Below are positions 47,559-50,508 of a stretch of DNA of 64,000 nucleotides, piece by piece. The stretch's first letter is position 1, and every line of letters begins with the position of its first letter. The position numbers and the translations under genes were made by a program. This DNA comes from Cyanomargarita calcarea GSE-NOS-MK-12-04C (GTDB lineage: Bacteria; Cyanobacteriota; Cyanobacteriia; Cyanobacteriales; Nostocaceae): assembly GCA_019359595.1 (NCBI GenBank), contig JAHHGZ010000021.1, positions 1-64,000 on the forward strand, read 5' to 3'. Under the pieces are notes generated by a model, which saw only the letters and a list, made by a program, of their open reading frames with translations, had not been told where the DNA came from and searched no databases.

Positions 47559-49169
47559 TTACCAAGTGATGCGATCGCCCAATTTTTCTCTCAACCTCAC
47601 ACTCACCCCAGAAACTTTATCCAAGTCTTTTAATGATGTGAATTCTTTCTGTTGACGAGCAACTATGATTCTAGAAGCTAATTTTTTACCTACTCCGGGA
47701 AGCGCTTCTAATTCTTTTTGGCTAGCTGTGTTCAGATTAACTTTTTGAATAGCTTTGTTTTCATATGTTGAAGGTGCTGTTACCTTCGGGCACTGTTTTT
47801 GCTGGGTTTTAATTTGGTTTTGGATTCTTCCGGGTAACCCTAGTTTGGCAGTGCGATAAATACGTTCAAATTCTTGTGAATAATGAGCGGCAATTGTGGG
47901 GTTAGAAATCACTAAAACTGCCTCATCATTACCATAATTTGCCGCTTCTGACCAATTATGAGAACCTGTAATTACTGTTTGATTATCTATAACCCCAAAT
48001 TTGTGATGCAACAAATCCCCTTTGGATAATATAGGTACTCCAACTGTGGTTATGGGATTTTGCCAAGGATGGTTATCTATTTCATATTTACATTTATCGC
48101 TTAAAGCAACGCCCATCATATCTAAGGCTTCGCTGTAAGGTCTATAAGCAAAACTCGGCTCGATCAGGCTCCTAATTTTAACATTTTTCTCATGGCGTGT
48201 TCCAAGAATATTCGCAATCCGCTGTTCTGAAAACACGAATAACGCCGTGTCAATTGATTTAGTTGCTGAATTTAATGTTTTGCCAATTAATCCATTACTC
48301 GTTTCAATCCACGGTTGAGTTGGAGATGTCGGTGAAAAATTTATGGTGATTGTGCTATTACCTAAGGTAATTTGTTTTGGTGGACGGAAAGGCTTTTTTA
48401 ACCCAAATTTTTTCTCGGCATAGATGAAATTAAATTCTTCTGTAAATATAGATGCCAATTCGGGGCTATCGATTTTTAATAAGTTATTGGCATTACCTAA
48501 ACTGTTGGGATTGATCAAATCGCCGTGAATGTCTGATAAGGTAAAATTCGCCGAAGTCACGATCGCAATCCGCTGGTCTATAATCAGAAATTTGTGATGC
48601 ATCAAACTGCTGCCTTTGCTGCCATCTGCGGTATCATCTATCCAAGGAATTTTAGCGTTCCGTAAAATTATTAAAGCATCTCTTTGATTGACTTCCTCTG
48701 TACTGGTTTTGCCATCTTTGTTTATATCTACAAATTTGCTAAACTCCTGATATCGTTCTTGCTCTCTCTTTTGCAATTTTTTGACTTCTTGGGCTGTCAA
48801 ACTACTCCAAGGACGACTGTAATTATTTTCTAAAATTAGCCTAACCTTGACCCCAGCTTTATGTCTGTCAGCTAATGCTTCTGCAATTTTGGGTAAACGA
48901 AATTCTTGTACCGCAACATCGACTGTAGATTTTGCCTGGGAAATAGAATCGATAATCTGTTTTTCTAAATCATCCCCCAGACGGGTTTGCTGGCGGTAAG
49001 GTTCTTTGTATTCTTCTGATTCAGTATGGTTGAAGTAAACTTGAATTAGCAAATCTTGCGGTAACGGTTGCGGACGTTTACTCTGAGATTGGAGTCCTTT
49101 GCAAGCTGTAAGGAGAAATATTAATAAAAAGAGATAATAAAAATGCCGTTTGGTAGAGAGAAGCTGCAC
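47559..49169 (-). CDS. Phospholipase D-like lipoprotein with EF-hand-like loop and ComEA-type HhH
   Basis: The 536-residue protein has a lipobox LLTAC (Cys23), so it is an exported lipoprotein. It has two HKD half-sites: HHKFLIIDQRIAIVTSANFT (~215-235) and HHKFGVIDNQTVITGSHNW (~390-410), as in PLD/Nuc nucleases. Inserted in the first half is an EF-hand-like loop, DINKDGKTSTEE (148-159). The C-terminal ~60 residues are a helix-hairpin-helix DNA-binding domain like ComEA (VNLNTASQKELEALPGVGKK). An outward-facing nuclease with DNA binding and calcium control is a reasonable inference. Confidence 0.88.
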   Translation of the reverse strand: MQLLSTKRHFYYLFLLIFLLTACKGLQSQSKRPQPLPQDLLIQVYFNHTESEEYKEPYRQQTRLGDDLEKQIIDSISQAKSTVDVAVQEFRLPKIAEALADRHKAGVKVRLILENNYSRPWSSLTAQEVKKLQKREQERYQEFSKFVDINKDGKTSTEEVNQRDALIILRNAKIPWIDDTADGSKGSSLMHHKFLIIDQRIAIVTSANFTLSDIHGDLINPNSLGNANNLLKIDSPELASIFTEEFNFIYAEKKFGLKKPFRPPKQITLGNSTITINFSPTSPTQPWIETSNGLIGKTLNSATKSIDTALFVFSEQRIANILGTRHEKNVKIRSLIEPSFAYRPYSEALDMMGVALSDKCKYEIDNHPWQNPITTVGVPILSKGDLLHHKFGVIDNQTVITGSHNWSEAANYGNDEAVLVISNPTIAAHYSQEFERIYRTAKLGLPGRIQNQIKTQQKQCPKVTAPSTYENKAIQKVNLNTASQKELEALPGVGKKLASRIIVARQQKEFTSLKDLDKVSGVSVRLREKLGDRITW

Positions 49170-49338: not shown

Positions 49339-50508
49339 ATGCAAATTTATTTAGATTACAGTGCTACTACCCCGACCCGAAAAGAAGCGATCGCACGAAT
49401 GCAAGCGGTATTGACACAAGAGTGGGGTAATCCTTCTAGCCTACATGAGTGGGGACAACGAGCAGCCACGGTTTTAGAACAAGCGAGAATGCAAGTTGCT
49501 GGATTAATTCATGCTGTAGATCCAGAATCGGTTATTTTTACTTCCGGAGGCACCGAAGCTGATAATTTAGCAATTATGGGTGTCACTCGTCTCTACACCA
49601 CTCCTCAACATCTAATTATTTCTTGTGTTGAGCATTCCGCAATTTCCGAAACCGTACATTTATTAGAGTTGTGGGGTTGGGAAGTCACGAGATTACCTGT
49701 AGATGCCAAAGGTAGAGTCAATCCACTAGATTTGAAAGCAGCGTTGCAAGATAACACCGTTTTAGTCTCTATAATTTACGGGCAAAGTGAAGTCGGTACT
49801 GTGCAACCGATTGCCGAATTGGGAAATATTGCCCGCAGTCACGGTGCTTTGTTTCACACAGATGCGGTACAAGTGGCCGGACGTTTACCCATTGACGTGC
49901 AATTAATGGCAGTGGATTTACTGAGTTTGTCAAGCCACAAAATTTATGGTCCCCAAGGTGCAGGAGCGTTATATGTACGTCCTGGAGTAAAGCTAATACC
50001 TCTACTGGCAGGTGGTGGTCAAGAATTGCGGATGCGTTCTGGCACCCAAGCTTTACCTGTAATTGCTGGTTTTGGGGTAGCAGCGGAATTAGCTTCGGAA
50101 GAACTTTTAACGGAAATGCCAAGATTGATTAAATTACGCGATCGCCTATTTTCTTTATTGTCTGACATTCCCCATTTAATACCTACAGGCGAACCTATAC
50201 AACGCTTACCTCATCATGTCAGTTTTTGCCTCCAAGACTCTGACGGCGAAAAACTTAGCGGCAAAACTCTGGTAAGGCAAATGAATCTTGCAGGTATTGG
50301 CATAAGTGCTGGTGCAGCCTGTCGTAGTGGTAAACTTAGTCCTAGTCCAATATTGTTGGCGATGGGCTATTCTGAGAAAGTCGCAATGGGTGGCATTCGC
50401 ATGACTTTGGGACGCGATACCACCGAAGCTGATATTGATTGGACAGCAATGGTGTTGAAGCAAGTTTTGCAAAGACTGGCAAATAGTCTCGTTTTAATTA
50501 AGAGTTAG
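49339..50508 (+). CDS. Cysteine desulfurase (NifS/IscS type)
   Basis: The PLP enzyme takes sulfur from cysteine for Fe-S clusters and thio-cofactors. The 389 residues show the family pattern: IYLDYSATTPT at the start, FTSGGTEADNLAI (~68-80), the PLP lysine in SLSSHKIYGPQGAGAL (~200), and the catalytic Cys in SAGAACRSGKLSPS (~325). It is of the group I NifS/IscS type. No nif or iscU gene is near, so it is most likely the housekeeping enzyme. Its last codon and stop lie at the head of a TTAGGAG repeat. Confidence 0.95.
   Translation: MQIYLDYSATTPTRKEAIARMQAVLTQEWGNPSSLHEWGQRAATVLEQARMQVAGLIHAVDPESVIFTSGGTEADNLAIMGVTRLYTTPQHLIISCVEHSAISETVHLLELWGWEVTRLPVDAKGRVNPLDLKAALQDNTVLVSIIYGQSEVGTVQPIAELGNIARSHGALFHTDAVQVAGRLPIDVQLMAVDLLSLSSHKIYGPQGAGALYVRPGVKLIPLLAGGGQELRMRSGTQALPVIAGFGVAAELASEELLTEMPRLIKLRDRLFSLLSDIPHLIPTGEPIQRLPHHVSFCLQDSDGEKLSGKTLVRQMNLAGIGISAGAACRSGKLSPSPILLAMGYSEKVAMGGIRMTLGRDTTEADIDWTAMVLKQVLQRLANSLVLIKS

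Follow-up and report, generated by a model that had tools for sequence, protein, structure and literature searches.

The gene at 47559..49169 on the minus strand of the window (the whole 64,000-nucleotide stretch of Cyanomargarita calcarea DNA that was analyzed) is predicted to encode an anchored periplasmic competence nuclease of the cyanobacterial ComA/ComEA type in which Ca2+ would stabilize or gate the active-site region, a reading to which we assign a probability of roughly 0.72.

Domain architecture of the encoded protein

The open reading frame starts with GTG and codes for 536 amino acids. An earlier sequence-only reading had placed a lipobox, two HKD sites, an EF-hand-like loop at residues 148-159, and a C-terminal helix-hairpin-helix (HhH) in this single protein, and all of these elements were recovered:

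47559..49169, minus strand: whole gene, encoding a PLD(HKD)-EF-hand-PLD(HKD)-HhH protein assigned to the cyanobacterial ComA/ComEA type
49101..49169, minus strand: lipoprotein signal peptide, residues 1-23, with the lipobox LTAC, whose last residue is Cys23 (codons of L20-C23 at 49101-49112)
48681..48770, minus strand: single EF-hand, residues 134-163, from the AlphaFold helices and profile matches
48693..48728, minus strand: EF-hand loop DINKDGKTSTEE, residues 148-159, from the family alignment
48576..48599, minus strand: first HKD site HHKFLIID, residues 191-198, from the sequence (best PLDc stretch, residues 190-210)
47859..48281, minus strand: second PLD domain, residues 297-437, best stretch of PF13091
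48090..48092, minus strand: Cys360, probable disulfide partner
47985..48008, minus strand: second HKD site HHKFGVID, residues 388-395, from the sequence
47790..47792, minus strand: Cys460, probable disulfide partner
47568..47750, minus strand: ComEA-type HhH DNA-binding tail, residues 474-534, from PF12836, with the same coordinates in the genome scan

Pfam searches returned PLDc_2 with 151.6 bits in two stretches and HHH_3 (PF12836) with 53.8 bits at residues 474-534 (cut-off 27 in both cases), the latter identifying the HhH as ComEA-type. The two HxKx4D motifs and the PLDc_2 fold place the protein in the PLD/HKD superfamily, and the residues H191, K193, D198, H388, K390, and D395 were invariant in a 30-row alignment. 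At the N-terminus, an n-region with K/R and a hydrophobic stretch precede the lipobox L20-T-A-C23, as in bacterial lipoproteins. Cys23 was present in 176 of 198 family rows, and relatives without the lipobox pattern often had a plain membrane anchor instead. Of 194 relatives, 141 showed the lipobox pattern; the surface location suggested by the sequence-only reading is better described as anchored and most likely periplasmic. Cys residues at positions 360 and 460 (191 and 194 of the 198 rows, respectively) suggest a putative Cys360-Cys460 disulfide, which would fit a location outside the cytoplasm.

In the source genome (7.9 Mb, 82 contigs) the gene is single-copy, and ComEC is encoded elsewhere. 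The other HHH_3 frames of this genome measure 733, 344, 187, and 160 aa. The 187-aa frame corresponds to a 180-aa open reading frame at positions 1150-1692 of the plus strand of locus L215, which has no obvious signal peptide at its start and adjoins a putative signal-peptidase-like gene; HhH frames of similar size were present in several other genomes. An Rfam search over 44-53 kb gave no match, and PHROGs matches were confined to function-unknown families plus a weak one to a transposase.

A single EF-hand is inserted in the first PLD half

Relatives were drawn from whole genomes, named contigs (80 loci), and further stretches, and the 210 loci with a match yielded 198 different rows for the family alignment. 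The sequence-only reading had named a lack of loop conservation in orthologs as the point on which its proposal would fall; the loop proved to be near-invariant, with D-x-[DN]-x-[DN]-x6-E matched by 182 of the 183 rows containing a complete loop, and a chance occurrence was rejected on this retention of D1, [DN]3, [DN]5, and E12. Across the same 183 rows, position 8 was I, L, or V in 173 (Thr in the window protein), while position 6 was Gly or Asn in 157, of which 72 had Gly. Among the 21,301 residues encoded by the open frames of at least 100 aa in the window, D148-E159 is the sole D-x-[DNS]-x-DG-x5-[ED]. The only complete loop that did not match, that of L144, has degenerate ligands (SNNIDGDISQYK) in a protein that is otherwise full-length and HhH-bearing, and represents a natural loop mutant.

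Pfam gave no EF-hand match for the window protein itself, even at E 1. The domain search in homologs that had been suggested earlier bore out the assignment: among 67 diverse segments of relatives (about 53 residues each), EF-hand_5 was found in 38 and EF-hand_1 in 25 at E 0.01. When solved structures were searched with a profile of the segment, the matches included a calcium-binding protein of the EF-hand type (5.4e-12) and calmodulins, with values between about 1e-8 and 1e-7 (1.6e-8 for one of them). With Thr at loop position 8 and no Pfam EF-hand match of its own, the window protein ranks among the weaker members of a family that is itself clear.

The AlphaFold2 model, built with 30 rows, had a mean pLDDT of 86.7 and a pTM of 0.79, and showed the EF helix-loop-helix with high confidence as a helix at residues 134-147, the loop, and a helix at 157-163, followed by the PLD helix at 165-171. 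When modeled alone, the segment gave two matching helices (fragment residues 19-32 and 42-48). A Foldseek search with this segment returned nothing at E 0.001 or better; nearly all of the 50 matches listed were EF-hand proteins by title. The hand is thus defined by a 12-residue loop with ligands at positions 1, 3, 5, and 12 and by flanking helices E and F in the model, which pack beside the PLD fold, and it is inserted between the PLD β-strand at 108-113 and the PLD helix at 165-171, ahead of the first HKD site. The loop ligands and the helix-loop-helix are shared with the calmodulin superfamily; in contrast to that superfamily, the hand is single and embedded in an enzyme fold. EF-hands usually occur in pairs, and no partner hand was seen here.

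At about even odds, in our judgment, this EF-hand is a structural Ca2+ clamp that is always loaded at periplasmic Ca2+ and has no regulatory role, a possibility that is compatible with the competence-nuclease reading. A clamp agrees with the single, unpaired hand, with ligands that barely vary across the family, and with helices that, in the model, lie against the PLD fold. However, three changes of EF-hand state occurred in rows that kept the PLD core, and position 6 is often Asn instead of Gly, a replacement that might tune Ca2+ affinity. Both structural and regulatory roles are described for DxDxDG motifs (PMC3123361). We slightly favor the structural role of Ca2+ over that of a regulatory switch, which we advance only tentatively.

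Relationship to Synechocystis ComA/ComEA

Reviews describe the Synechocystis ComA/ComEA protein (slr0197) as exported, equipped with DNA-binding and endonuclease domains, and essential for natural transformation. The domain architecture of the window protein agrees with this description. In a 2023 study (PMC10667661), disruption of comEA (slr0197) within its open reading frame, at coordinates reaching base 844, abolished transfer; the slr0197 frame must therefore be far longer than that of a classical ComEA. The Anabaena ortholog is named all3087 in another report (PMC3976300). We likened the window protein to slr0197 and all3087 by described architecture and role, and consider its assignment to the slr0197 type strong but not closed, with orthology presumed. 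In a BLASTp survey that used proteins of competent strains, the ComEA quotient was 0.1 for Prochlorococcus and Fischerella and 0.9 for Cyanobium and Nostoc punctiforme (PMC7292380). These scores would fit a search in which the PLD core is the matched part and the tail is sometimes gone.

Gene order offered a further comparison. In genome G076, a 555-aa relative, which holds the only HhH match found there, follows a putative RNA-binding (RRM) gene, an rpiA-like gene, and two small genes. This arrangement resembles that of slr0193-slr0197, and G076 is presumably Synechocystis-like by gene order; in G014, which carries the same group code, this gene order was absent.

The PLD-ComEA architecture and its role in transformation are thus largely known. 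In the passages of the open-access literature consulted, we found no mention of an EF-hand in cyanobacterial ComA/ComEA, and within that literature we found nothing on the slr0193-0196 neighbors or on the Nuc endonuclease in connection with Synechocystis ComA. Within the same body of literature, both the EF-hand and the finding that the stable unit is the EF-bearing nuclease, with the HhH tail being dispensable to it, appear to be new.

The HhH tail is lost repeatedly and the nuclease core is retained

Scoring the HhH as absent when less than 30% of its columns were filled, we found it missing in 71 of 198 rows, and the EF-hand missing in 15 of 198. All 15 rows without EF-hand also lacked the HhH, and every HhH-bearing row kept the EF-hand; one of the EF-less rows, L198, comes from a broken gene and is fragmentary. 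A tree was computed from 133 rows, thinned at 88% identity from 196 and with the EF-hand and HhH columns left out (L198 and L202 were excluded as too short). On this quick tree, in which 51 of 130 inner branches are open, the HhH state changed 19 times and the EF-hand state three times, the EF changes affecting rows whose PLD core is retained; for the tail-bearing group, starred branches require at least six of the HhH changes. In f25, a class-level family of small genomes, the tail was absent in 17 of 17 tree rows. A decayed HhH, severed by a stop codon or frameshift, lay directly downstream in six of the 71 tail-less rows, many of which have only short flanks. HhH remnants were located downstream of L050, L065, L098, L102, L104, and L106. 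These remnants mark an ongoing and repeated loss of the ComEA tail in the Nostocales.

Three groups of rows without the EF-hand deserve description. L193-L197 and L205 are a long-branched form that lacks both EF-hand and HhH and whose second HKD site reads HSKM; this form was the sole above-threshold match in genomes G334, G394, G390, G389, G397, and G407. Two more, apparently independent, EF-hand losses comprise L180, L199, L200, and L201 (f8) and L189, L190, L192, and L210 (f25), all of them tail-less. Because the three EF-hand changes lie in rows that keep the core, the PLD core can probably fold without the EF-hand.

For the core, dN/dS had a median of 0.139 among 15 rows without the tail (105 pairs) and of 0.125 among 14 rows with it (91 pairs), which indicates that the nuclease core is under purifying selection where the tail is gone; the HhH tail itself gave 0.219. 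A search of 24 tail-less genomes revealed no replacement ComEA. Apart from a decayed remnant in G087 (4.6e-24), their top HhH matches did not exceed E 7.5e-9, and the best of these weak matches sat in frames 700-790 aa long, a size that would suit Tex. In eight tail-bearing genomes, the strongest ComEA-type HhH match was the PLD-ComEA fusion itself (2.2e-20 to 4e-37). ComEC was kept in 21 of the 21 tail-less genomes examined for it. With three changes for the EF-hand against 19 for the HhH, the tail absent in over a third of the rows, the core under selection, and ComEC kept, we therefore take the conserved unit to be a Ca-hand nuclease and not a ComEA receptor.

Distribution, association with ComEC, and gene neighborhood

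At the phylum level, 159 of 386 genomes contained the family; at the order level, 360 of 388 did. Among 105 genomes at the family and order levels, 95 had both the gene and ComEC, two the gene only, three ComEC only, and five neither (Fisher 1.2e-5), in a count made by hand over genomes that are not independent and that include few independent losses. At the order level, five of the eight genomes without the gene also lacked ComEC. The discordant cases (five of 105) were G051, G157, and G326 with ComEC only and G101 and G278 with the gene only; all but G051, a single contig, are multi-contig assemblies. The association fails outside the class, where most of the genomes listed have ComEC without the PLD-ComEA gene.

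A cysteine desulfurase-like gene lies divergently at 49339-50508 on the plus strand and was within 600 bp of the gene in 74 of the 80 named loci; the two genes share a promoter region.

These data also bear on the view, which we regard as unlikely, that the PLD-EF core is mainly a scavenging nuclease for extracellular DNA (phosphate or nucleotide salvage), with the HhH and transformation secondary and limited to certain lineages. Such a role would accommodate a core that persists under purifying selection after loss of the tail, as well as the uniformly tail-less f25 rows. Against it, the DNA-uptake channel remains in every tail-less genome examined for ComEC, and gene loss within the order goes mostly together with loss of ComEC.

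Relatives of the PLD core and the probable substrate

By sequence, the nearest solved entries were mitochondrial cardiolipin hydrolase (Zucchini-type), Nuc, NucT, and ComEA (ComE operon protein 1). HKD chemistry is common to the window protein and NucT, Nuc, and mitochondrial cardiolipin hydrolase, which gave the best sequence matches among solved structures; unlike them, it carries both HKD halves in one chain, an inserted EF-hand, and an HhH tail. The top structural match of the model was phospholipase D 7e0m (Z 33.5). The 5' exonucleases PLD3 and PLD4 also matched (Z about 31, 15-17% identity); the window protein has their fold and, like them, two HKD sites in a single chain. PLD3 and PLD4 are lysosomal, membrane-anchored, and non-cytosolic, and we know of no EF-hand or HhH in them. 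Like ComEA of Bacillus, Vibrio, and Thermus, the protein ends in a ComEA-type tandem HhH and has a membrane-anchored or periplasmic setting; in contrast to classical ComEA, its HhH is joined to a PLD nuclease that contains two HKD sites and an EF-hand, and this HhH has been repeatedly lost in the family. The NCBIfam models scored below their cut-offs for NucT (71.7 bits against 297) and for comE (TIGR01259, 51.9 against 152.35, through the HhH part alone), and TIGR00426 also matched below its cut-off. The nuclease-type nearest sequences, the PLD/exonuclease fold, and the ComEA-type HhH point to DNA, which is most likely the substrate of this HKD enzyme.

Lipid cleavage and defense are both less likely than a competence nuclease. 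A membrane-directed enzyme of the phospholipase or cardiolipin type, which we consider improbable, would agree with the PLD fold, the weak matches to cardiolipin synthase models, and the top structural match to 7e0m, but the NucT, Nuc, and mitochondrial nuclease-type entries were better matches by sequence, and the protein is fused to a ComEA-type HhH in a family with a published role in transformation. A DrmC- or DpdK-like component of anti-phage defense is the least probable reading and was rejected on cut-offs and gene context: profiles of DISARM DrmC and of DpdK do match the PLD halves, but DrmC reached 64.7 bits against an NCBIfam cut-off of 133, the PADLOC matches were partial, and the protein is exported, near-universal in the order, and accompanied by the conserved housekeeping (cysteine desulfurase-like) neighbor. 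Of the roles first suggested for the protein (scavenging, competence, or defense), competence is best supported, by the architecture, the tracking of ComEC, and the published slr0197 knockouts, whereas the apparent link to defense reduced to generic PLD matches.

Proposed mechanism and implications

For the competence nuclease, we propose that the type IV pilus and PilQ would deliver DNA to the periplasm, where the HhH tail (where present), gripping double-stranded DNA, and the PLD core would hold the incoming molecule. The two HKD halves would form one PLD-type phosphodiesterase active site that nicks or degrades one strand, the other being imported by ComEC. The EF-hand, of which the first PLD half holds just one, would bind Ca2+, which most likely locks (stabilizes) or gates the active-site region; the lock or gate is proposed because the exiting helix of the EF-hand runs almost directly into the PLD helix leading to the first HKD site. 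DNA as the substrate, the periplasmic location, the binding of Ca2+, and the effect of Ca2+ are what we infer in this scheme, whereas the domains, the conservation of the EF-hand, the co-occurrence with ComEC, and the loss of the tail were observed.

A bolder joint reading, which we consider possible but doubtful, is that Ca2+ licenses cyanobacterial DNA uptake, with the EF-hand as a Ca2+ switch on strand degradation, and that DNA handling depends essentially on the Ca-hand PLD core and not on the HhH tail, the tail having been dropped by many lineages that still take up DNA.

To our knowledge, the identity of the nuclease that makes single strands for ComEC from incoming duplex DNA is unsettled in most Gram-negative-type bacteria. 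The present family would supply a named candidate for the strand-degrading nuclease, one that is fused to a ComEA domain and has two catalytic sites and a calcium hand conserved across the phylum. Entries of 'ComEA present' in cyanobacterial competence surveys may likewise need rereading: if orthology holds, an slr0197 query would score the nuclease core, and the ComEA tail is missing in about one third of the sampled rows.
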